From Acidobacteriota bacterium (lineage in GTDB: Bacteria > Acidobacteriota > Terriglobia > Terriglobales > Acidobacteriaceae), in NCBI GenBank assembly GCA_013289875.1, contig JABCZC010000017.1, positions 1-64,000 on the forward strand: a stretch of DNA of 64,000 nucleotides, read 5' to 3'. The position numbers and the translations under genes are program-made. The notes under the pieces are model-generated. The model searched no databases and was not told the DNA's origin. It saw nothing but the letters and a program-made list of their open reading frames with translations. This document shows, in pieces, positions 4,587 to 51,080 of the stretch; the stretch's first letter is position 1, and each line of letters opens with the position of its first letter.

Positions 4587-7109
4587 CTAGCGCGTGATCT
4601 TTTCCTGGAGGCCGGGGCCCAGGGCCAGCTCGATGAGCGTGCGCTGCTCCATTTCGTGGGCCTTGGCTGAGCCGGTTGCCGGGCTGGCGGCGGCGGAGCG
4701 CTTGATGCTGAGCACCTGCCGGTCGCTGGCGAGACGGCGAAGGCGCGGCATGACAAAGGAGTGCGCGCCCATGTTCTCGGGCTCTTCCTGAACCCAGATG
4801 ATTTCGTGGGCGTCGGGATGGGCGGCGATTGCGGCGGCAAGTTCGGCTTCGGGCCACGGATAAAGTTGCTCGAGGAAGATGATGCCGGTGGTGCCGTCGC
4901 CGCGCTTCTGGCGTTCGACGCGCAGTTCGTGCCCGATTTTTCCGGTGCAGATGAGCAGGCGCCAAGCGCTCGCGATGCCGGTTTCGGGCAGGACATTCTG
5001 AAAGTGCGGCAGCGTGAGGTCTTCGATCGGCGAGACTGCGTCAGGATGGCGCAGCATGCTCTTGGGCGTGAAGACAATGAGCGGCTTCCGCCACTTTTGC
5101 AGGGCCTGACGGCGCAGAAGATGGAAATACTGCGCGGCAGTGGATGGCTGGCAGACTTGAATGTTGTCGTGGGCTGTGAGCTGGAGATAGCGCTCGATGC
5201 GCGCGCTGGAGTGTTCCGGACCCTGGCCTTCGTAGCCATGGGGCAGGAGCAGGACGATGCCGCTGAGCAGGCCCCACTTGTCTTCGCCGGCGGAGATGAA
5301 CTGGTCGATGACGATCTGCGCGCCGTTGGCAAAGTCACCGAACTGTGCTTCCCAGAGGACGAGGGTCTCGGGAGAGTCGCGGCTGTATCCGTACTCGAAG
5401 CCAAGCACGCCGGCCTCGGAGAGGATGGAGTTGTAGATGTCGAAGTGGGCCTGCTGCGGGGAGAGATTACCGAGGGGAATCCAGGGCTGCTCGTTCTCGA
5501 CATCGATGAGCACGGCGTGGCGATGGTTGAAGGTACCGCGCTGACTGTCCTGGCCGCTGAAGCGCACTGGGGTGCCCGCAGTGAGGAGAGAACCGAAGGC
5601 AACGCCTTCGGCCATACCGTAATCGAAGGTACGCTTGCCCTGTCCCATCTCAGCGCGCTGCTCTAATAGCTTCTTGATTTTCGGGTGGACGTGGAAGCTT
5701 TCAGGGTAGGAGGTGAGGCCCCGCGCGATGGTATTGATCTGCTCGCGGGAGAGACCGGTTTCGACGGCGTATTCCGGCTTCCATGGGCCTCCCTTGAAGG
5801 ACGACCAGTATTCAGGCAGGCGCGACAGGTGAGGCATCTTCTGCATGGTGGTGGCGGTCTTCTGCGCCTGAGTGAATTCGGACTGAAGGTCGCGTACTTG
5901 AGCGGAGATATTGACGCCGAGTTGCTTTGCGTAAAGCTCGGAGAGCGGCGGATGGTTCTTGATGCGGCTGTAGCGCAGGGGCTGGGTGATGGTGGGATCG
6001 TCGACCTCGGAGTGGCCGTGACGGCGATAACCGATGAGGTCGATCACGACGTCGCTATGGAACGTGTGGCGATATTCGGCGGCAAGAGCAGCGATGCGCA
6101 CGACGGCGGCCGGATCTTCAGCGTTGACGTGGAAGATGGGGATGGGCAGACGGCGCGCGAGATCGGAGGAGAAGCGCGTGGAGTTCGACTCGTCGGGTTC
6201 GGCTGTAAAGCCAATGAGGTTGTTGACGATGATCTGGATGGTACCGCCGACAGAAAAGCCTTCGACTTCGGCGAGATTCATGGTCTCGGCCCAGATGCCC
6301 TGGCCCGCGAAGGCGGCGTCTCCGTGAATGGTGACGGGCAGGACGAGTTCCATGCCGTCTGCGCCAGCGCGGATCTGCTTGGCGCGCGTGCGGCCCATGG
6401 CGACAGGATCGACAGCTTCAAGGTGGCTGGGGTTCGAGACCAAGTGCAGGGCGACCCACTCGTCGTTGCGCGTGTGAAAAACGCCGGTGGCTCCGACGTG
6501 ATACTTCACGTCCCCGCCGCCGAGAATGCTGCGCGGATTGACGTCTTCAAATTTGGAAAAGATGTCGGCAGCGGGCTTGCCGAGCGTGTTGACCATGACG
6601 CTGAGGCGTCCGCGGTGGCTCATGGCCATGACTGCGGTTTGCACGCCGAGTTCCGCGGAGTGGTTGAGCAACTCGTCGAGAAACGGGATGAGGGCGGTGA
6701 CGCCTTCGAGGGAAAAGCGCTTGGTGCCAAGATAGCGCGACTGAATGACCTGCTCGAAGATATCGGCGCGCGTGAGCAGGTCGAGAACGTGGTGCTGCGC
6801 GGCTTCGTCGATGGCCAGCGGGGCGGACTCGAAGCGCTGGGCAATCCAGTCGCGACGTTCGGCCGAATGGATATGCATAAACTCCGCACCGACTGTGGAG
6901 CAGTAGTAGCGGCGGGCTTCGACCGCATCCGGACCGGCGAGATCAAGCTCGGGAACGCGGACAGGCGAAAGATACTGATCGAGTGGATCGAGTTGCGCCT
7001 GGAGGTAGCCCCAGCGACGGAAGGCGTCGAAAACCTGATCGCGTTGGGAGGTTTGTTGTCTGGTGGGTCGGGGTTCGGTGGGTGGTGTTGCCAGCCTGGT
7101 TGCGCTCAT
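4587..7109 (-). CDS. sucA: 2-oxoglutarate dehydrogenase E1 component
   Basis: 840 residues. Thiamine-diphosphate-dependent E1 subunit that decarboxylates 2-oxoglutarate and passes the succinyl group to the lipoyl domain of E2 in the TCA cycle. Visible signatures include MAMSHRGRLSVMVNTLGKP, IHGDAAFAGQGIWAETMNL (ThDP/Mg binding), SGQDSQRGTFNHRHAVL and PLGNLSPQQAHFDIYNS. It is shorter than the E. coli enzyme (about 930). The N-terminus keeps the short E2-binding-like segment (AFRRWGYLQAQLDPL). No sucB or lpd neighbours are present, so the E2/E3 genes lie elsewhere. The opposite strand carries long open frames that are only GC-driven shadows. Confidence 0.97.
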   Translation of the reverse strand: MSATRLATPPTEPRPTRQQTSQRDQVFDAFRRWGYLQAQLDPLDQYLSPVRVPELDLAGPDAVEARRYYCSTVGAEFMHIHSAERRDWIAQRFESAPLAIDEAAQHHVLDLLTRADIFEQVIQSRYLGTKRFSLEGVTALIPFLDELLNHSAELGVQTAVMAMSHRGRLSVMVNTLGKPAADIFSKFEDVNPRSILGGGDVKYHVGATGVFHTRNDEWVALHLVSNPSHLEAVDPVAMGRTRAKQIRAGADGMELVLPVTIHGDAAFAGQGIWAETMNLAEVEGFSVGGTIQIIVNNLIGFTAEPDESNSTRFSSDLARRLPIPIFHVNAEDPAAVVRIAALAAEYRHTFHSDVVIDLIGYRRHGHSEVDDPTITQPLRYSRIKNHPPLSELYAKQLGVNISAQVRDLQSEFTQAQKTATTMQKMPHLSRLPEYWSSFKGGPWKPEYAVETGLSREQINTIARGLTSYPESFHVHPKIKKLLEQRAEMGQGKRTFDYGMAEGVAFGSLLTAGTPVRFSGQDSQRGTFNHRHAVLIDVENEQPWIPLGNLSPQQAHFDIYNSILSEAGVLGFEYGYSRDSPETLVLWEAQFGDFANGAQIVIDQFISAGEDKWGLLSGIVLLLPHGYEGQGPEHSSARIERYLQLTAHDNIQVCQPSTAAQYFHLLRRQALQKWRKPLIVFTPKSMLRHPDAVSPIEDLTLPHFQNVLPETGIASAWRLLICTGKIGHELRVERQKRGDGTTGIIFLEQLYPWPEAELAAAIAAHPDAHEIIWVQEEPENMGAHSFVMPRLRRLASDRQVLSIKRSAAASPATGSAKAHEMEQRTLIELALGPGLQEKITR

Positions 7110-7312
7110 ATTAATTCTGCTAGCAGGCGCGTAGGGCGAAGAAAGGCCCCGTGCTCGATGTTGCTCAAAACACCGCGCTGCATCGCAACTCTTATTTTAC
7201 AGCTTTGGCCAGCGAGGGCGGAAATCGCGCGCGCTTGAAATCGCCGGGAGGTCCAAAAGAGATACGGTGGTTCGTTGTGGGCAGCAGCTTACATTAGTAA
7301 GGGAGTGTGAGC

Positions 7313-7966
7313 ATGCGTATTTCATGGCGGCTATGGCTGCGGTTGGCGGTGGTGGCGGCGGCGATAGCAATTCTCTGGGTGCGGATCGCATCGCAACACC
7401 GCACAAAGCCGCCGGCAATCACCGACCTGGCGAAGACGAATCCACTGAACCAGCCGGGCGGCGGGCCGGCTCCGGCAGAGGGCTATGAGGTTTACTCCGC
7501 CCTATATCAGGCTCCGACGCCGGAACCGCTGGTGTTCGCGGAGAATTCGACGACCGACATTCCGCAACTGGACGGGAGCTGCCTGAAGCCTTCCACGCCG
7601 GAAGAGCATGAGATGGCGGATGCATTTGTGGCAGCGAATCGGCAAAGCCATCGCTGGGAGCAGAAATTCTCCATTCCGCAAGGCTATCGGCTGCTTTCGC
7701 ATGACGAAGCGGGACAGGTGCTGGGTTGCCTGTCGACGCATGGGCGCGATGCTGCGGCGTGCGAAGGCTATAAGGGGATCCGGCATGTGCGCTACCTGGG
7801 TGTTCCGGGATTTGACCAGGCACATGCAAGGGCGCTGGTGTCGGTGATCAAGAGCTGTGGCGGTTTTTGCGGAAGTGGCGGGATTTTCGCGGTCGACGAG
7901 GCCGGAAACACATGGAAGCGCGCGGCGACGACGGACTTCACGCGCGACTGCAGCTGGATGTACTAG
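7313..7966 (+). CDS. Membrane-anchored or exported protein of unknown function
   Basis: 217 residues. The start at ATG 7313 is set by GGGAG seven bases upstream; a GTG six bases earlier is too close to that site. Residues 5-25 are a hydrophobic signal anchor (LWLRLAVVAAAIAILWV), followed by a Pro/Gly-rich linker and a soluble domain with five Cys, including CGGFCGSGG near the C-terminus and a final DCSWMY. The Cys pattern suggests disulfides in the periplasm. No family recognised. The next gene starts 19 bp downstream, so the two probably form an operon. Confidence 0.75.
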   Translation: MRISWRLWLRLAVVAAAIAILWVRIASQHRTKPPAITDLAKTNPLNQPGGGPAPAEGYEVYSALYQAPTPEPLVFAENSTTDIPQLDGSCLKPSTPEEHEMADAFVAANRQSHRWEQKFSIPQGYRLLSHDEAGQVLGCLSTHGRDAAACEGYKGIRHVRYLGVPGFDQAHARALVSVIKSCGGFCGSGGIFAVDEAGNTWKRAATTDFTRDCSWMY

Positions 7967-7985
7967 GTGCGTACTGGGAGAAAGC

Positions 7986-8849
7986 GTGAGGGCACGGAGT
8001 TTTTCTGGTTGTGTGATCGCGGTGATGATGATGTCGGGCTGCGCGGCTCATCGGGCGGCGACAGCGCCGGTTAATGCTGCACCGGTGGTAGTGGCAGAAG
8101 CTGTGCGCGAAGCTGCACCCAACGACTATATGCGGGTGGGTTTTCTGCCTTTGGGAGCTTCGGTAACGAGTATTGCGAAGCCGGGGGCTCTGCGTGGATT
8201 TGTAACGGCGACGGTGCTGTATTCTCCGCCACTAATTGTTGAGGATTATCCGAAATTTTCGGGGCTGGAGAACGACGACAGCAAGGTGCTGGTAGCGATG
8301 CGATGCAAGCCGCCCAATCCGGAGAAGGCGGATGCGGTGTTGGCGACGTGGCCGAATGTCTTCGCTGCGGTTAAGCGCGATGTTCCGCTGGCCGCGGGCG
8401 ATTGCGATTCAACTCCGCTGGACCCGGGCAAGCAAGTGGCGTGCTATGCACAGGCGTTCAGCGATCCGGCGGAGACGGTGGTTCCTGCTTCACTGGCGCG
8501 GACGTTCAGTTATGCGGGCACGCTGTATGACGGCAATCATGCGGCACTTGCGACCTGGCTGCAACAGAATTACGGGATCTATCCGGCGTTTGCCGGGACG
8601 GGATATTCGGTCAAGGATTCCTACTCGATTGACAAGCAGCCGATGACATCGCAGGAAATTCTGGTGAAATCGGTGTCATCGGAGTACATCCTGAAGAACG
8701 TCTCGCTCGCGGACGCCGGGTGTCGGTGTATTTCGGTTACGCCGTATGTAGGGCGAGCAAACGACCGGCTTGATCCGGAGTTTATTGAACAAGCCGGCGG
8801 CAATGGCGTGTGCAAGTCAGTGGAGCGGCTGGGAGTGGCGGCTCACTGA
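7986..8849 (+). CDS. Putative lipoprotein of unknown function
   Basis: 287 residues from GTG 7986, with GGGAG five bases upstream. The N-terminus VRARSFSGCVIAVMMMSGC carries a lipobox (MSG-C), so the mature protein is probably lipid anchored. The remaining domain has paired Cys (AGCRCISV) and no recognisable family motif. It lies 19 bp after another exported unknown and ends before a short non-coding stretch with a hairpin. Both genes may be a lineage-specific envelope pair. Confidence 0.75.
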   Translation: MRARSFSGCVIAVMMMSGCAAHRAATAPVNAAPVVVAEAVREAAPNDYMRVGFLPLGASVTSIAKPGALRGFVTATVLYSPPLIVEDYPKFSGLENDDSKVLVAMRCKPPNPEKADAVLATWPNVFAAVKRDVPLAAGDCDSTPLDPGKQVACYAQAFSDPAETVVPASLARTFSYAGTLYDGNHAALATWLQQNYGIYPAFAGTGYSVKDSYSIDKQPMTSQEILVKSVSSEYILKNVSLADAGCRCISVTPYVGRANDRLDPEFIEQAGGNGVCKSVERLGVAAH

Positions 8850-8858
8850 GATTGGCCC

Positions 8859-8899
8859 CGTTCTGCGTTGCCGGCTGGTTTTTCGGCGAAGGCAGAACG
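8859..8899. other. Imperfect hairpin downstream of the lipoprotein gene
   Basis: CGTTCTGC (8859-8866) pairs with GCAGAACG (8892-8899), with further inner pairing (GCCG/CGGC). No T-run follows, so this is not a standard intrinsic terminator. It could stabilise the 3' end of the 7313-8849 transcript. Confidence 0.3.
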
Positions 8900-9027
8900 C
8901 TGAGGCAGTGAACGTGTGGACGGTTGGGGAACGGTTCGGCGGGAACGGCTGGTTGAGGACAGGGCTCGATACCATGCTGCCGCCCAATCCGCATCCGGAC
9001 GCCGTTGTCAGACGCTCCGGTCGCGGC

Positions 9028-9489
9028 TCACTCCCTGAGATCCTCAAACCTAGCCAGAATCAACCGTTGAATCACGGCAAAGATCATCGCGGTCGACACG
9101 CCGAACATGAGGCATCCATCCGATGCTTCTAGCGGGCCCAGCAATTTCCACGATGGCGACATGATGATGTCGCCGTAGCCCAGGGTTGTGTAGTTGACCG
9201 CCGAGAAGTAGTAGGCGGTTCCGAAGGCCTGGAACTCTCCACAGAGGAGAAATAAGGCGGTCCAAAGAGCGATTTCAACCAGATGCGCCATGAACGCGCA
9301 CGACAGCACTATCGCGACGATTGCAAAATCGACTCGGAAGCTTGTGCCCGTATGGCCAAGTTTTCTCTCGCGCCGAAAGAAGTTTACCGTCGCGATCACT
9401 GCCAGCCCGTGGATGAGGATCGTACAAAGGACAGTGATTCCACCAAGCAACAATGGAACCAGGATCGCGACTCGAAGGGTTTGTGTCAT
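9028..9489 (-). CDS. Two-transmembrane ion channel, K+ channel type
   Basis: 153 residues with hydrophobic segments at about 8-35, 52-82 and 125-145. The pore loop contains the selectivity-filter signature TTLGYGD (residues about 100-106), typical of Ion_trans_2 potassium channels. The N-terminal arrangement suggests an extra helix before the pore module. No cytoplasmic RCK/TrkA domain or cyclic-nucleotide domain is attached, so gating is unclear. It is convergent with the lipoprotein gene at 7986-8849. Confidence 0.85.
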   Translation of the reverse strand: MTQTLRVAILVPLLLGGITVLCTILIHGLAVIATVNFFRRERKLGHTGTSFRVDFAIVAIVLSCAFMAHLVEIALWTALFLLCGEFQAFGTAYYFSAVNYTTLGYGDIIMSPSWKLLGPLEASDGCLMFGVSTAMIFAVIQRLILARFEDLRE

Positions 9490-9507
9490 CGTTCTGTCAC
9501 AAACATC

Positions 9508-9612
9508 CTATCCTGCCACGCGCCGCGGAGGCGCCAGGCGGGAGGCGATAAAGGCGGCGAGGATGAGGAGGAGTCCGGTGACGAGGAAGGGACGCCAAAA
9601 GGCGCAGCGGCC
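9508..9612 (-). pseudogene. Remnant of an MFS transporter C-terminus (copy A)
   Basis: On the minus strand the region encodes a tail reading FLVTGLLLILAAFIASRLAP before a stop at 9508-9510. It matches the last helix of the intact MFS transporter at 12382-13689 (LLVTGLVLVLAAVVASRLKAP). Upstream, a possible ASDL-like continuation is in another frame, so the fragment is frameshifted. No start codon or other helices remain. Confidence 0.6.
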
Positions 9613-9741
9613 AGGTCGCTGAGGTTGTCGAATGCTATTGCTGCCTTCGGGCTGCGCTTAAGAAGCTTGGGAGTTTGTTGGGTTCGCTCAGGCCGGTGAG
9701 GACGGGAGAGTGGAGACCTTGACGGGCTATGCTCTGCACTC

Positions 9742-9912
9742 TCACGGAGCGGATTTGTAAGGCTCGTTCAGGCGGGAAGCGACGGCGGCGGCCAGGACGA
9801 GCAGGGCGCTGGTGACGAGCAGAGCAGCGCGGAAGCTGTGGGTGATGTCGCTGGCGAGTCCCATGATGTAAGGGCCGGTAAATCCGCCGAGGGCTCCAGA
9901 TGCCAGAGAAGA
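9742..9912 (-). pseudogene. Remnant of an MFS transporter C-terminus (copy B)
   Basis: The minus strand encodes GALGGFTGPYIMGLASD followed by ITHSFRAALLVTSALLVLAA and a stop at 9742-9744. This matches the C-terminal two helices of the intact MFS protein at 12382-13689. Bases 9768-9898 align without gaps to 12411-12541, including a 30-base identical core. Nothing upstream continues the frame, so this is a truncated copy. With the intact gene's 3' end it bounds the block 9935-12366. Confidence 0.75.
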
Positions 9913-9934
9913 GATAACCACACGGAAATCGCGT

Positions 9935-10645
9935 TCAGCCTACGGTGGTGACCTGGTGGAACTCCGCTTTTCCAGAGTTACCGTTATTACCACCTTGAGC
10001 CTTGTTCCCAGGGATCCCTGGGGGTCCATCGATCGGGGGGTCACCTGGCTTGTAGTCGCTGTGAGAATAGTCACTATTTGCACCATATCCTCCCGTGGTG
10101 CCCGCGTTGCCGGCTTGACCTTCCGTTCCTGCTTTGCCGCCGTGTCCGTAGCTTGCAGTGAATGTGCCTTGCCCTCCACTCTGGTCAGAGACGAAATAAA
10201 TGAGAATCGCGCCACCATCGCCGCCATTCATGCCATCCGCAGCATCTCCACCGTTGCCCGGCTTGCCGCCATCGCCACCGAAGGCACTCGCTTCGCAATC
10301 TTCGCCAGCCCCGCCGGTCCCGCCCTGACCCCCGTCGCCACCCTTCCCCCCGTCACCGCCTTCGCTACCGTCTCCACCGCTGGTGTCCACACTTACATCG
10401 GAGCCGAGGATGACCGTGTGTAATTCAAAGACTCCGCCAGGATTGCCGATGGCCCCTGGGGAACCTGCGCCACCTGGACCACCATCGCCTCCACGCCCGC
10501 CACGGCTGGGCGGGTCATCGGACACGAAAAACCAGCCACTACAATTCGCGTCGTTGCCATTGGCGCCTTTCGGGCCGGCGATGCCAGCCACGCCGTTGGT
10601 TCCTTTGTCCGCACTTACTCCCTTGAGATTTATGCCTCCGGACAT
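9935..10645 (-). CDS. Glycine-rich, collagen-like repeat protein
   Basis: 236 residues, start ATG at 10645 with GGAGG six bases upstream. Most of the protein is built of GxG/GGxGG runs (for example GGDGSEGGDGGKGGDGGQGG) with stretches of collagen-like Gly-X-Y near the N-terminus (GVAGIAGPKGANG) and C-terminus (GPPGIPG). Two short beta-prone inserts interrupt the glycine runs: VFELHTVILGSDVSVDTS and GGAILIYFVSDQ. There is no signal peptide. Such sequences form extended polyglycine-II, triple-helix or glycine-rich beta-helix structures; the function is unknown. The gene follows an unknown gene by 58 bp on the same strand and probably shares its transcript. Confidence 0.75.
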   Translation of the reverse strand: MSGGINLKGVSADKGTNGVAGIAGPKGANGNDANCSGWFFVSDDPPSRGGRGGDGGPGGAGSPGAIGNPGGVFELHTVILGSDVSVDTSGGDGSEGGDGGKGGDGGQGGTGGAGEDCEASAFGGDGGKPGNGGDAADGMNGGDGGAILIYFVSDQSGGQGTFTASYGHGGKAGTEGQAGNAGTTGGYGANSDYSHSDYKPGDPPIDGPPGIPGNKAQGGNNGNSGKAEFHQVTTVG

Positions 10646-10703
10646 AATTTACCTCCGATAACTTGAAACAGGCTGTGATTCAAATTGATTGTCGACCGCG
10701 ATC

Positions 10704-11360
10704 TCACGGTTTACTTGCGCCAGAAACCAGCGTGGAGGCGGCTTGATTGATCCAGTGGCTTGCGGGGTATCCGCCATCGATGCGGTTGCACCGCAAAAGG
10801 AAATATGCTCCCTGGGCACGCAATTCGCCTGTTTTTTCAATCAGGACATTTCTTGCAAGCAACGCGTTGATCGAGCGGTCAATGACCAACAGAGTTTTGA
10901 TATCCAGATCCTGTGAAAGTTCGATCTGCCGCCAAACCGGCAAACGAGCGTCGTCGGTAGCAAATATGAATTGTGAGATTTTACCTGCTAACAGTTGAGA
11001 CTCTACTTCGCCGTACCCGTGACGATTTTGTAGCACCCCGGCCATCGTCGTCCTTGCATTCTGCAGGGCTGCCGCATTACTTCGGGCCTTTAAGAAACGG
11101 ACGATCTCCTGTTTAGGAAGTACTCCGAAGCTGGAAGGTATATCCGCGATTACTGAACCGGAAAATTTACTTTGTAACGCTGCGCGTTGCGCGTCGTGAA
11201 GATGTTCCAGTTGAACGCTTTTCGGGATCATCCCTATCTCATAGAGTTGCTCGATCGACGTAGGGCGATATTCCTTCAAGAACGGAGCGGCCGGCGACCC
11301 TGGGTCATTCGAGTAGATTGTTGCTTCGCCATTGGCGGTATTAATGGTTATTTTGGACAT
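10704..11360 (-). CDS. Protein of unknown function, partner of the glycine-rich protein
   Basis: 218 residues from ATG 11360 (MSKITINTANGEATIYSND), chosen because a GGAGA sequence lies 9 bases upstream. An in-frame start further out, at 11471, has no ribosome-binding site. No signal peptide or membrane segment. The C-terminal half has a pattern LLVIDRSINALLARNVLIEK and a Cys-containing stretch, but I recognise no family. Base composition is less GC-rich than the neighbouring housekeeping genes. It precedes the glycine-rich gene by 58 bp and follows the AraC regulator on the same strand, so the three may be one unit. Confidence 0.7.
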   Translation of the reverse strand: MSKITINTANGEATIYSNDPGSPAAPFLKEYRPTSIEQLYEIGMIPKSVQLEHLHDAQRAALQSKFSGSVIADIPSSFGVLPKQEIVRFLKARSNAAALQNARTTMAGVLQNRHGYGEVESQLLAGKISQFIFATDDARLPVWRQIELSQDLDIKTLLVIDRSINALLARNVLIEKTGELRAQGAYFLLRCNRIDGGYPASHWINQAASTLVSGASKP

Positions 11361-11514
11361 GCTATGGATTCTCCGATCTTTGCCCGCATACCCTTTGACG
11401 TTAAATAGCCAGCTGTTACCGGGGGAGAGAATAAAATCTCTGATGACAGCTTTCGCGGATTGCTCAACCATTTACTTTGGTGGAGTTGATTCGATCTCGC
11501 CTAGTAAAAACGCG

Positions 11515-12366
11515 TCATCGTGAGAAGTTTTTTTCTGACGTGTCCGGGGCGAGTGCGCCCGGTCTCGCATCACCAATCTGCGAGAGAAGCTGCCTGGGAG
11601 TATCTCCTCCGAGCAGTTCGAAGTCGCGGATCATGTGCATTTGATCGTGATATCGAAGACTGTGGGCTATTTCGAGCCAAGTGCGGTCGGGCGAAGCTAT
11701 CTTTGCATCGAGCGCGCTCTGAAAGCGGGCCACCCGGGCATATAACTTAGGAGACATTCCTACTTCGCGGAGGAACTGGCGCTCAAACTGACGGATTCCC
11801 AATCCGGCCTTACCGGCAAGGCCGGAGATGCTACTCACAACCCCTCGCGATGAAAAAACATGTTCGGCAACAGCAACCATGATTTCTTTGCGGGGAACGC
11901 GCGAAGCCATCCCCAAGAGGACGACCTCCATGGTTTGAACTCGCTGCTCGAATGTGGCGCAGTCTGCCAAGCGGTCTCTTAAAGGAACAAGCAGGTCGGA
12001 AATCAAGGCAGCATCGCAGCTCTGATGTGATATTTCGCGCACGGGGAGGGCGAAGAGGCGCGATAGTCCCGTCGGCCTGAAAAATACCCCGAACGAAATT
12101 ACTCCCGGACTCAGTTCGATCTGCGCACATCCTCCGACTTGCGCTCCTACAATCGCCTGTCTAGGGGTCGTCAGATCGTAGCCTAGTGAGTGATGCACGG
12201 TATAAGGGACGCCGAATTGAAACTCAAGTAATTGCTCGAGACGCGCTGGTACTGGCTCTAATATCAGCGGCGCGCCTGATTCGAACGGGTGCACCTCACG
12301 CTGGGCAAAGATGCGCACGAATTCCTGCAATGCGGGTTTGGGAAGCGCCGTTCGCAGCGCAATCAT
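11515..12366 (-). CDS. AraC-family transcriptional regulator
   Basis: 283 residues. The C-terminal third (about 175-265) is an AraC-type double helix-turn-helix, with LAGKAGLGIRQFERQFLREV (first HTH) and IAHSLRYHDQMHMIRDF (second). The N-terminal ~160 residues resemble the ligand or sensing domain of the DUF6597-type group (FGVFFRPTGLSRLF). It lies upstream of the unknown/glycine-rich pair on the same strand, with a 154-bp gap that may hold their promoter. It starts 16 bp after the stop codon of the MFS transporter. Its targets are unknown; the neighbours are the obvious candidates. Confidence 0.85.
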   Translation of the reverse strand: MIALRTALPKPALQEFVRIFAQREVHPFESGAPLILEPVPARLEQLLEFQFGVPYTVHHSLGYDLTTPRQAIVGAQVGGCAQIELSPGVISFGVFFRPTGLSRLFALPVREISHQSCDAALISDLLVPLRDRLADCATFEQRVQTMEVVLLGMASRVPRKEIMVAVAEHVFSSRGVVSSISGLAGKAGLGIRQFERQFLREVGMSPKLYARVARFQSALDAKIASPDRTWLEIAHSLRYHDQMHMIRDFELLGGDTPRQLLSQIGDARPGALAPDTSEKNFSR

Positions 12367-12381
12367 AGTAGGCGGAGTATA

Positions 12382-13689
12382 TTACGGCGCGGGCGTGTGC
12401 GGCGGCGCCTTTAGCCGGGATGCGACAACGGCGGCCAGAACGAGGACCAAACCGGTGACGAGGAGGGCGGCGCGGAAGCTGTGGGTGAGGTCGCTGGCGA
12501 GTCCCATGATGTAAGGGCCAGTGAATCCGCCCAGGGCTCCAATGGAGTTAACGAAGGCGATGCCTCCGGCGGCGGCAGTGCCGCGAAGGAGGAGGGCGGG
12601 GAAGGTCCAGAAGGGCCCGATGGCTCCCCAGATGAAGCCAGTGGCGAGGAAAATGACGGCAAGCGAGAGGATAGGATTGCCGACGGCGGCGCTGGTAATG
12701 AAGGCCAGTGCGGCAGCAATGAGACACGAACAGAGGTGCCACTTACGCTCTCCGCTGCGGTCGGAGCTGCGAGCGACGAGAAGCATGGAGACGACGGCCA
12801 GACTATAAGGGATTGCGGTGAGAGCAATGACCTGGAGGTCACCGGCATGGGTGAGGTTCTTGACGACATTGGGCAGCCACAGAGTGAGCGCGTAAAAGGC
12901 CACCGACATGGCGAAATAGATGGCAGAGAGAAGCCAGACGGCAGCGCTCCTGAAGGCTCCGGCAAGGTGAGTGGGGGCGGCAGGCGGCGCGTGCGCCTCG
13001 ACCTCGGCGATGAGCCACTCGCGCTCGGTGATCGACAGCCATTGAGCTTCTTCGGGGTGGTCGGTGATAACGAAGAGGACAACGATGCCGAGAATGATCG
13101 ACGGCAGGCCCTCGCCGATGAAAAGCCACTTCCATCCGGCAAGATGAGCAAGGCCGTCGAGGCGCAGGAGCAGCGTGGAGACGGGAGCACCGATGACTCC
13201 GGCTGCCGGAGCGGCGGTGATAAAGAAGGCGAAGGCGCGGGCGCGCTGCGCGGAGGGAAACCAGCGCGTGAGGCAGAGGATGATTCCCGGGAAGAATCCG
13301 GCCTCGGCTGCGCCGAGGAGAAAGCGGACGAGGTAGAAGCCGGTGGGCGTATGGACGAGCGCCATCGATGAAGAGAGGATTCCCCAGGCGGTCATGATGA
13401 TGGCGATCCAGCGGCGCGGGCCGAGGCGCAGCAGGATGAGGTTGGCGGGGATCTCGAAAATCGCGTAGCTGATGAAGAAGAGACCGGCTCCGGCTCCGTA
13501 GACGGTGCCGGAGAATCCCAGGTCGCGGCGCATGGAGAGCGCAGCGAAGCTGAGGTTGACGCGGTCGAGATAAGCGCAGACGTAGAGCAGGAAGAGAAAA
13601 GGGATAATCCGCCAGAAGACGCGGCGGATAAGACGGACCGGGTCAATATCAGAAAGGCGCGGCGCGGACGCGTGCTGAGGCTGCGGCAT
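12382..13689 (-). CDS. MFS transporter, anion:cation symporter (ACS) family
   Basis: 435 residues with about 12 hydrophobic segments in two groups of six. The first helix region ends in the ACS-family signature YLDRVNLSFAAL, and loop 2-3 carries the MFS motif region (LLRLGPRRWIA). ACS members take up organic anions such as phthalate, glucarate, galactonate or tartrate; which one cannot be told. It follows the M24-fold gene by 66 bp on the same strand, so the pair may be cotranscribed. Its 3' end is present as two degenerate extra copies at 9.5-9.9 kb. Confidence 0.9.
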   Translation of the reverse strand: MPQPQHASAPRLSDIDPVRLIRRVFWRIIPFLFLLYVCAYLDRVNLSFAALSMRRDLGFSGTVYGAGAGLFFISYAIFEIPANLILLRLGPRRWIAIIMTAWGILSSSMALVHTPTGFYLVRFLLGAAEAGFFPGIILCLTRWFPSAQRARAFAFFITAAPAAGVIGAPVSTLLLRLDGLAHLAGWKWLFIGEGLPSIILGIVVLFVITDHPEEAQWLSITEREWLIAEVEAHAPPAAPTHLAGAFRSAAVWLLSAIYFAMSVAFYALTLWLPNVVKNLTHAGDLQVIALTAIPYSLAVVSMLLVARSSDRSGERKWHLCSCLIAAALAFITSAAVGNPILSLAVIFLATGFIWGAIGPFWTFPALLLRGTAAAGGIAFVNSIGALGGFTGPYIMGLASDLTHSFRAALLVTGLVLVLAAVVASRLKAPPHTPAP

Positions 13690-17850: not shown

Positions 17851-18600
17851 TTAGCGGAGGCCACCGGAGGCGAGTATGGTCTCGCCGGTCAACCAGCCGG
17901 AATCGGCCGACGCCAGGAATACCGCGATTGGCGCGATATCTTCCGGTTGCGCGATCCGTCCGAGGGGCGTCTGCGCCTCGAAGTGCTTCTGGAATTCGCT
18001 ACCGACGAAGCCCGCGGCGTGAACGCCTGCGGTTTCGACCAACCCGGGATTAATAGAGTTCACCCGGATCTTCTTTGGCCCGAGTTCCTTAGCGAGCACG
18101 TGGGTTACGGCATCGACGGCACCCTTCGTCGCCGTATACACAGCGGTTGTGGGTGGGTTCAACGAACTGGCAGTCGACCCTATATTGATCACACTACCGC
18201 CCTCGGAACCGAAGTGCTTCGCGGCTTCCTGCGTAGCCAGGAGGAGGCCCAGAACGTTGGTATTGAACTGGCGGTGGAACTGTTCCTCGGTGATCTCGTC
18301 GAGCGCGGCGAACTGATAGACGCCGGCGTTGTTGACCAGTACATCCAGTTGTCCGAATGCTTTCTTCGTCTCGGCGAAGACACGCTGCACGTCTCCGGCT
18401 TTGGAAACATCGCCCTGGATGGCAACAGCCTTACCGCCGTTACCCTTGATTTCCGCAACGACCCGGTCCGCGCCCTCTTTGCTGGAGGCGTAATTCACCA
18501 CAACCGTTGCACCCTCGGCGGCGAGACCCTTGGCAATACCTGCGCCAATTCCCTTCGAGGCTCCCGTCACAATCGCTACTTTGCCTTTTAGCCTGCTCAT
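17851..18600 (-). CDS. SDR-family NAD(P)-dependent oxidoreductase
   Basis: 249-residue classical short-chain dehydrogenase. The Rossmann motif TGASKGIGAGIAKGL is at residues 12-26, NNAG near 90, catalytic Ser in NIGSTAS, and YTATK near 155. The C-terminal segment LASADSGWLTGETILASGG is typical of glucose-1-dehydrogenase/FabG-like members. The substrate cannot be told. The 128-bp gap upstream contains a palindrome that fits an ArsR operator, and the ArsR gene is next upstream on the same strand, so regulation by that protein is likely. Confidence 0.9.
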   Translation of the reverse strand: MSRLKGKVAIVTGASKGIGAGIAKGLAAEGATVVVNYASSKEGADRVVAEIKGNGGKAVAIQGDVSKAGDVQRVFAETKKAFGQLDVLVNNAGVYQFAALDEITEEQFHRQFNTNVLGLLLATQEAAKHFGSEGGSVINIGSTASSLNPPTTAVYTATKGAVDAVTHVLAKELGPKKIRVNSINPGLVETAGVHAAGFVGSEFQKHFEAQTPLGRIAQPEDIAPIAVFLASADSGWLTGETILASGGLR

Positions 18601-18728: not shown

Positions 18729-19028
18729 CTAGATCAGGTCTTTCCTGAGGCGCTCGAAATATGCCTCAAGAACATCGCGCTGCGGGAGATAGCTTACGAA
18801 CTTCCCTTTTCGCACCTGCTGTACCAGACCCGCAGTCTTGAGTTCCTTCATGTGGTGGGAGAGCGTGGCGGGGCTGATCTCGAGGCATTCCAGCACAGTA
18901 CCGCAGGCGAGCGCGTTTTCGTGGTCTCCCAGACGCCTGAGGATTTCATAGCGGCGCGGATCGGCGAGCGCTTTGGCGATCAACTGGATCTGATTCTCGG
19001 AAAGGGCCTTTCGTTTGGATATCGCCAT
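18729..19028 (-). CDS. ArsR-family winged-helix transcriptional regulator
   Basis: 99 residues; the whole protein is one HTH_20/ArsR winged helix. IAKALADPRRYEILRRLGDH leads into the HTH (ISPATLSHHMKELKTAGLV) and the wing (VRKGKFVSYLPQ). A Cys (ALACGTVLECLE) lies before the recognition helix, but no metal-binding CxC typical of arsenic or cadmium sensors is seen, so it is probably of the non-metal SdpR/NolR-like kind. It lies upstream of the SDR gene with a matching palindrome between them. Confidence 0.88.
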   Translation of the reverse strand: MAISKRKALSENQIQLIAKALADPRRYEILRRLGDHENALACGTVLECLEISPATLSHHMKELKTAGLVQQVRKGKFVSYLPQRDVLEAYFERLRKDLI

Positions 19029-50830: not shown

Positions 50831-50838
50831 GCCTAAAA

Positions 50839-51080
50839 GCAGATCCTTCGACTTCGCACGCCACGGCGTGCTTCGCTCAGGATGACAACCGTTTAAATCT
50901 CGCTCAGGATGACATCGTTGGGGAATGGTGAGCGAAACTGCAGGTCCTTCGACTCCGCGCTTCGCTCAGGATGGGGCACCCCAGAGCGGTGGTCAGTGAT
51001 GAAAAAGCAGGTCCTTCGACTCCGCACGCTTCGCGTGCTCCGCTCAGGATGACAACCGTCTAAATCTCGCTCAGGATGAC
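50839..51080. repeat. Cluster of dispersed repeats ending in CGCTCAGGATGAC
   Basis: Three copies of a GCAGGTCCTTCGACTCCGC...CGCTCAGGATGAC unit (about 50839-50888, 50939-50974, 51007-51058) alternate with shorter AAATCTCGCTCAGGATGAC half-units (50893-50913, 51062-51080). The units have small internal palindromes. A related copy is at 58899-58934. No coding potential is seen. Confidence 0.7.

Follow-up and report, generated by a model that had tools for sequence, protein, structure and literature searches.

A three-gene block between an intact MFS transporter gene and two truncated MFS gene ends in a Silvibacterium genome

The locus and its repeated transporter ends

The window, that is, the whole stretch of DNA analysed here, comprises 64,000 nucleotides of contig 17 (JABCZC010000017.1) of a Silvibacterium genome, a soil acidobacterium assembled in 184 contigs with a contamination of 3.07%. 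The features of the locus are as follows:

4587..7109, minus strand: 2-oxoglutarate dehydrogenase E1 type gene (OGDH), which we take from its sequence to encode that enzyme; its counterpart is the gene immediately behind MFS in G007 and G001
7857..8849, plus strand: gene common to G003, beside the OGDH gene; the similarity to G003 ends near 8904
9028..9489, minus strand: two-helix K+ channel gene (Ion_trans_2)
9508..9621, minus strand: MFS tail 2, a shorter and more decayed MFS 3' relic that has a stop of its own (core 9520-9590; upstream alignment gapped)
9742..9898, minus strand: MFS tail 1, ~50 in-frame terminal codons of a diverged MFS gene, holding the repeat copy 9761-9898
9899..9934, minus strand: junction J2, 36 bases from the glycine-rich stop to the sharp onset of MFS homology
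9935..10645, minus strand: glycine-rich protein gene (236 aa, no Pfam family)
10704..11360, minus strand: uncharacterized protein gene (218 aa from the preferred start, 255 aa from the first ATG at 11471; no Pfam family)
11515..12366, minus strand: AraC-family regulator (HTH_18, E 1.2e-11), first gene of the block
12367..12385, minus strand: junction J1, the MFS stop plus 15 bases up to the AraC start
12382..13689, minus strand: intact MFS transporter gene, with relatives of 82% (G003), 78% (G006), and 70% (G007) identity
12404..12541, minus strand: right copy of the repeat (84%), inside the intact MFS gene

A preliminary description of this DNA had aligned 9768-9898 with 12411-12541 without a gap, and had recognized the left copy as a mere tail and the right copy as part of an intact gene. 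Both points hold, and the direct repeat is slightly longer, joining 9761-9898 to 12404-12541 over 138 ungapped nt with 116/138 bases (84%) identical (BLAST E 1.6e-36 in a search of the genome itself), compared with 68/138 for the next-best, unrelated place in the window. A DNA search of the same genome with 9500-9940 returned that place and 12404-12541 only. Tail 1 spans MFS residue ~383 to the end, closes with its own stop at 9742-9744, and its MFS homology breaks off abruptly at 9898. The 30-base identical core reported earlier is present at 9847-9876 and 12490-12519; it is not special in itself, because a run of that length arises with p = 0.06 when the 22 mismatches are placed at random.

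The second relic had been overlooked. Its core at 9520-9590 (extending to about 9621 with gaps) is 77% identical to the MFS gene of G003 (E 2.5e-7) and matches the window MFS gene at 52/71 positions, compared with 38/71 for the next unrelated place. Tail 2 begins about 15-27 MFS codons after the start of tail 1, with ~30 codons left.

The joins between the block and the MFS DNA, near 9898 and 12385, are sharp. At J1 the homology to the G003 MFS gene ends at 12385, yet the G003 gene continues for four more codons, and for this reason the MFS stop seems to have been supplied by the joined DNA. J2, judged without a donor sequence, shows no clear shared bases past the edge of homology. The best NCBIfam names for the intact MFS gene are HpaX and D-galactonate transporter, both of which score under their cut-offs.

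Composition and distribution of the block

The glycine-rich, uncharacterized, and AraC genes all lie on the minus strand between the repeats, as had been described. The proposed check of GC content and codon usage was made against 33 mechanically chosen ORFs of the window. The GC3 values of the three genes (57, 53, and 57%, respectively) are below those of 33/33 background ORFs (59-81%), and the codon scores of the uncharacterized and AraC genes are likewise below 33/33, while that of the glycine-rich gene is below all but 4. The earlier statement that the block is less GC-rich than its neighbors holds against this background for the third codon positions of all three genes, but the plain GC of the glycine-rich gene is not low (61.3%, vs. 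50.7% for the uncharacterized and 55.8% for the AraC gene).

The uncharacterized gene was detected in 1/61 relatives and 1/396 genomes of the phylum, in both cases in its own genome alone, with no match in the 395 other phylum genomes. It had no counterpart in phages, plasmids, viral contigs, named genomes, Pfam, NCBIfam, PADLOC, or PHROGs, where the named-genome and viral scans reach close relatives only because they are seeded by exact peptide patterns. Two PDB chains matched its product at E 0.04, which we take as chance. For the AraC regulator, matches within the genus were at most 34% identical and covered at most 178/283 residues, and the nearest full-length relative (53%) comes from another genus of the family. 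The AraC neighborhoods in five family genomes differ, and relatives of the uncharacterized and glycine-rich genes were absent from them in a comparison with the low-complexity filter on. For the glycine-rich gene the comparison covered only plasmids, viral contigs, and retrieved loci, and the block DNA had no match in plasmids. Scans for promoters and terminators yielded no more than chance, and no toxin or immunity gene was recognized in the block.

The MFS loci of five relatives (G003, G006, G007, G001, and G025) were read, the key comparison being made with the low-complexity filter off and no identity cut-off; one further locus comparison omitted hits within one locus and those shorter than half of the shorter protein, another omitted hits of 45% identity or less, and the comparison behind the MFS tails omitted loci repeating the window. 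None of the five loci contains a relative of the AraC, uncharacterized, glycine-rich, or K+ channel genes, in contrast to what would be seen if the same three genes stood there in all relatives with normal composition, which had been named as evidence against an insertion. The MFS gene is followed by a ~100-aa gene and then NAD synthase in G003 and G006, by OGDH in G007 and G001, and by a 532-aa gene in G025; MFS immediately before OGDH is the plain state in S. bohemicum and G001. The K+ channel is not a conserved neighbor, because no channel relative occurs in the five loci; its relatives lie elsewhere, on contig C178 of G003 (61%) and on contig C147 of its own genome (62%). The empty site imagined previously, with the channel gene directly beside the MFS gene, was therefore not found.

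Divergence of the tails

Tail 1 and the window MFS gene differ by 22 mismatches, 15 of them at codon position 3 (permutation p 0.0002), with dN 0.092 and dS 0.478, and the same dN of 0.092 with dS 0.59 separates the MFS gene from that of G003. The bin also carries two versions of the locus M3 peptidase - hyp - NAD synthase (contigs C8 and C105), which are 83-88% alike with dS 0.42 and 0.61 and dN 0.035 and 0.037. Because 15/22 mismatches fall at third positions and the dS resembles that of the C8/C105 locus, the 16% difference between the repeats gives no date for the event, and the earlier conclusion from this divergence that the event is not recent does not follow. It may be taken as a warning that the divergence of flanking repeats need not date an insertion.

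Judging from the substitution pattern, tail 1 has diverged in the manner of a second working MFS gene, perhaps before it was truncated, and it may come from the working MFS allele of a sister lineage. Quartet sites group tail 1 with the window MFS gene (9:3:1), as does a tree of 10 rows from which tail 2 was excluded (SH-aLRT 96, bootstrap 58); one of the MFS alignments was made without G001. In the polarized site test, with 2 sites set aside, 8/12 of the changes placed on tail 1 alone affect third positions (p 0.019), or 3/7 (p 0.43) if the outgroup G006 must agree. Divergence before truncation falls short of proof because this stricter test gives 3/7, and because the working copy alone yields part of the 15/22 excess. 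Tail 2 has no excess at third positions (7/16 vs. G003 and 8/19 vs. the window MFS gene).

Possible origins of the arrangement

With moderate confidence, we consider it most likely that a foreign-type block of ~2.5 kb entered this genome behind the MFS gene through recombination that used MFS homology as its anchor, because the composition is odd, the block is absent from the relatives read, and the joins are sharp. The insertion at the MFS 3' end put forward in the preliminary description is upheld on these grounds, though not in its age or in the form of its empty site. As in homology-anchored insertion, foreign-type DNA lies beside a homologous anchor gene and a gene end is left at the far side. 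Along with the cargo now at about 9899-12385 (AraC, uncharacterized, and glycine-rich genes), the incoming DNA would have brought the MFS 3' end of a related lineage. In one route, a circular molecule with an MFS 3' fragment would integrate by one crossover of the Campbell type, giving intact MFS - cargo - MFS 3' fragment. In another, the MFS end of a linear fragment would recombine, with an illegitimate join within the MFS gene already present (homology-facilitated illegitimate recombination, HFIR). Either route would produce cargo flanked by an intact gene at one end and by a diverged 3' tail at the opposite end, and tail 2 at 9520-9590 suggests that a similar event came before.

Several observations count against this account. 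The 138 nt at 84% identity are a short shared stretch for a crossover; J2 is without clear micro-homology, whereas HFIR joins mostly have it; and the dN values of the C8/C105 locus are below that between the MFS gene and tail 1. The donor arrangement, with MFS joined to the cargo, was not found for the uncharacterized gene in the plasmids, phages, viral contigs, and genomes searched.

The alternative mentioned earlier, ancient tandem MFS paralogs, is less likely, and we regard it as rather doubtful. The block would have replaced the 5' part of a second gene while a third decayed, and the tails would be true paralog remnants in place. Two tails of falling length in a row behind an intact gene agree with this, as does the divergence of tail 1, which fits separate working genes; MFS genes are also many, with 8 matches in the genome itself including the gene and tail 1. 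However, a tandem was seen in 0/5 loci read (the G003 gene is split over two contigs), the sole second MFS gene near one of them, in G025, being 25% identical and some 6 kb distant. The significant MFS pieces within 8850-12385 are 3' ends only, with no significant 5' or middle fragment and ~30-50 codons left per relic, and tail 1 groups, weakly, with the window MFS gene after the split from G003.

An artefact of assembly or binning, in which contig 17 joins two sister lineages both present in the bin, is improbable. We allow for a chimeric contig because the assembly has 184 contigs and 3% contamination; the two versions of the M3 peptidase locus in the bin are in line with it, and the dS between the MFS gene and tail 1 is similar to that between these versions. 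Yet a mis-join usually needs shared sequence, whereas the MFS DNA meets unrelated sequence at 9898 and behind 12385, and even with a chimera inside the block, each of the two lineages would still have the block adjoining an MFS end.

Integrative elements and islands that occupy the 3' ends of genes leave the gene end duplicated around the inserted DNA, and an intact gene and a 3' fragment at opposite ends are the classical picture of site-specific integration. The present locus has this layout and the 30-base identical core, which could be an attachment site of an element that targeted and restored the MFS 3' end. We hold this to be very improbable: no integrase or other mobile-element gene was recognized among the three block genes, the two tails do not begin at the same MFS codon, the core length has the p of 0.06 given above and the search with 9500-9940 found no further place, no tRNA gene was found in the window, and the two inverted-repeat pairs in 9880-12420 are both internal. 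The core was accordingly rejected as an attachment site. A transposon was dismissed, with no terminal inverted repeats at the block and no transposase recognized.

Under the preferred reading of homology-anchored insertion, the gain of the block is known in kind. Displacement arrays of T6SS effector-immunity genes in Vibrio cholerae are explained by HFIR in PMC5361080, where strings of orphaned 3' regions of Rhs genes are also cited. As in these arrays, the anchor is kept, new cargo lies behind it, and older gene ends would be pushed downstream, possibly serially; unlike in them, the anchor is a transporter gene, the relics are tails of ~50 and ~30 codons, and the cargo is a regulator and two genes of no known family, with no recognized toxin or immunity gene. 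Duplication of a gene end through a single crossover was described for lacZ in PMC3240628, and such an integration would likewise give the order intact gene - inserted DNA - homologous gene end, with the gene end directly repeated; a plasmid was used there and its DNA remains, whereas the two copies at the present locus are 16% different and no part of a plasmid was recognized. The same source reports that HFIR joins mostly, but not always, show 3-10 bp of micro-homology and a deletion of similar size, and that HFIR is rare, perhaps too rare to shape E. coli genomes.

The case would then be a routine type of gene gain whose scar, a truncated extra copy of the transporter tail, is easier to read than usual. 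Gains of small blocks without a mobile element seldom leave such a scar; here it places the joins and hints at an origin of the tail in a working gene from a different lineage, and at two such events at one gene end. It is conceivable, though we think it unlikely, that the MFS 3' end serves as a permanent docking site where sister Silvibacterium lineages swap accessory blocks by homology-anchored insertion, with one cut-off tail per event; past swaps at an ordinary metabolic gene could then be counted from the row of tails.

The 3' flanks of the MFS and M3 peptidase genes appear to be swapped between this genome and G003, an observation that the explanation preferred here does not need.

A probable insertion behind the MFS gene and its scars

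The locus most likely carries a lineage-specific, foreign-type insertion of three genes behind an MFS transporter gene, with two MFS tails as its scars, the first diverged and the second further decayed:

12382-13689, minus strand, intact MFS gene
11515-12366, minus strand, AraC regulator gene
10704-11360, minus strand, middle gene of the block
9935-10645, minus strand, glycine-rich protein gene
9742-9898, cut-off MFS 3' end (tail 1)
9520-9590, core of a shorter, more decayed MFS 3' end (tail 2)
9028-9489, minus strand, K+ channel gene
4587-7109, minus strand, OGDH gene

The direct repeat noted in the preliminary description is real: 9761-9898 and 12404-12541 align over 138 nt without gaps, with 116 identical positions (E 1.6e-36 in a search against the own genome), while unrelated parts of the window reach at most 68/138. 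As had also been stated, the left copy is only a tail. On the gene strand it reads as the last ~50 codons of an MFS transporter with its own stop (9742-9744). The MFS homology edge at 9898 is sharp. Tail 2, a second MFS relic, had been overlooked; its core matches the window MFS gene at 52/71 positions (38/71 at the next unrelated place) and the MFS gene of the relative G003 at 77% (E 2.5e-7), reaching about 9621 if gaps are allowed. The significant MFS pieces within 8850-12385 are 3' ends only. On the other side, the AraC start codon follows the MFS stop after 15 bases. The junction seems to lie at the MFS end, at ~12385, because homology with G003 ends at this last sense base and the G003 gene continues for four codons.

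Composition and distribution of the block genes

GC3 is low in all three genes (0.53-0.57, versus 0.59-0.81 in 33 mechanically chosen window ORFs), and the codon scores proposed as a further check are also low, falling below all 33 ORFs for the middle gene and AraC and below all but 4 for the glycine-rich gene. These values favour a foreign origin of the block. AraC, the sole block gene with a family assignment, has matches in the genus of up to 34%, covering at most 178/283 residues, and in the family in 140/398 genomes (this one counted; best 53%, G575). Its neighbours differ in five family genomes, and neither of the other two block genes is among them (low-complexity filter on). The closest AraC relative found (locus L129 of G575, 6729-10643) has a TIR-domain gene on one side and, on the other, a 480-aa gene that matches no Pfam family. 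The middle gene was found in this genome alone among both 61 relatives and 396 phylum genomes, and searches for it among viral contigs, plasmids, phages and named genomes were negative; the glycine-rich gene had no match in plasmids, viral contigs or the five MFS loci described below.

The locus in relatives

When named genomes were scanned with the MFS protein, four loci matched, namely Silvibacterium CP_BE_RX_22 (82%), Silvibacterium CP_BE_RX_R2_7 (78%), S. bohemicum S15 (70%) and a weak match in a Limosilactobacillus (30%). The relatives G003, G006 and G007, whose loci were read, share the window's genus. The MFS gene is flanked in G007 and G001 by a melibiase-type gene and by what we take to be a 2-oxoglutarate dehydrogenase (OGDH) gene. 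Downstream of it come a gene of ~100 aa and then NAD synthase in G003 and G006, and a gene of 532 aa in G025. In G001 the MFS gene itself is broken (L053, 9698-10869: residues 14-314 and 341-427 in different frames). The window keeps the MFS-OGDH order on one strand with 5.3 kb in between, and on the OGDH side its match to G003 runs through gene 7857-8849 and stops near 8904.

No relative of the K+ channel, glycine-rich, middle, AraC or M24 gene occurs in any of these five MFS loci. The predicted empty site, with the channel beside the MFS gene, was thus not found; the best relatives of the channel lie elsewhere, one on G003 contig C178 and one, in this genome, on contig C147. M24 and its partner, presumably CtaA, form a separate pair present in G003, G006, G007, G008, G001 and G004.

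The MFS and M3-peptidase 3' flanks look exchanged between G003 and this genome (L079 of G003, L049, window, L106 and L107): G003 has OGDH-g7857-M3 and MFS-NAD synthase, and this genome has M3-NAD synthase, with its MFS gene on the g7857-OGDH side. Window 17851-18600 and 18729-19028 hold relatives of two further genes, a short-chain dehydrogenase gene that G004, G005 and G008 carry between melibiase and OGDH, and a ~99-aa gene that adjoins it in G004 and G005; here OGDH is >10 kb away.

Age, route and source of the scars

The preliminary description took the repeat divergence as a sign of age. Third codon positions hold 15/22 mismatches (permutation p 0.0002), and the copies differ by dN 0.092 and dS 0.478, comparable to MFS versus G003 (0.092, 0.59). 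Part of this excess would arise even if just one of the two copies were a working MFS gene, and the changes were therefore polarised: those assigned to tail 1 alone fall on third positions in 8/12 cases (p 0.019), shrinking to 3/7 (p 0.43) once G006 must agree. The evidence therefore favours, without proving, that tail 1 diverged while still part of a working gene and was truncated later. Tail 2 lacks the excess (7/16 versus G003, 8/19 versus MFS), as an older relic would.

Insertions of this type are known in kind; what is unusual here is a scar that can still be read, may record serial events and lies at a metabolic gene. A single crossover with a circular molecule bearing an MFS 3' fragment would leave intact gene, cargo and 3' fragment in this order; PMC3240628 reports such duplications of part of lacZ in E. 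coli. Homology-facilitated illegitimate recombination would leave the identical picture, and PMC5361080 proposes it for T6SS arrays of V. cholerae in which gene ends have been displaced. It is described in PMC3240628 as rare and usually accompanied by micro-homology; no clear micro-homology was seen here at the edge at 9898. Tail 2 may stem from an earlier, similar event or may be what is left of a paralogue. Against a site-specific element inserted behind the MFS gene speaks that tails 1 and 2 begin at different MFS codons; no integrase or transposase was found among the block genes, no tRNA in the window, and no terminal inverted repeat.

The simplest source seen for tail 1 is a sister-lineage allele. 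Quartet sites favour tail 1 with the window MFS gene by 9:3:1, and the tree also joins them, weakly (bootstrap 58, SH-aLRT 96). This genome (5.05 Mb, 184 contigs, completeness 90%, contamination 3%) may have a sister lineage binned together with it: the bin holds two M3-hyp-NAD synthase versions, on C8 and C105, with dS of 0.42 and 0.61 and lower dN of 0.035 and 0.037. These versions (L106, C8:1-3365, and L107, C105:10192-13084) share 83-88% nucleotide identity, and a further NAD synthase (64%) is on C169. A short repeat at 50834-50890 and 51003-51057 of the window has about 80% identity to C8:4277-4333 of the same genome.
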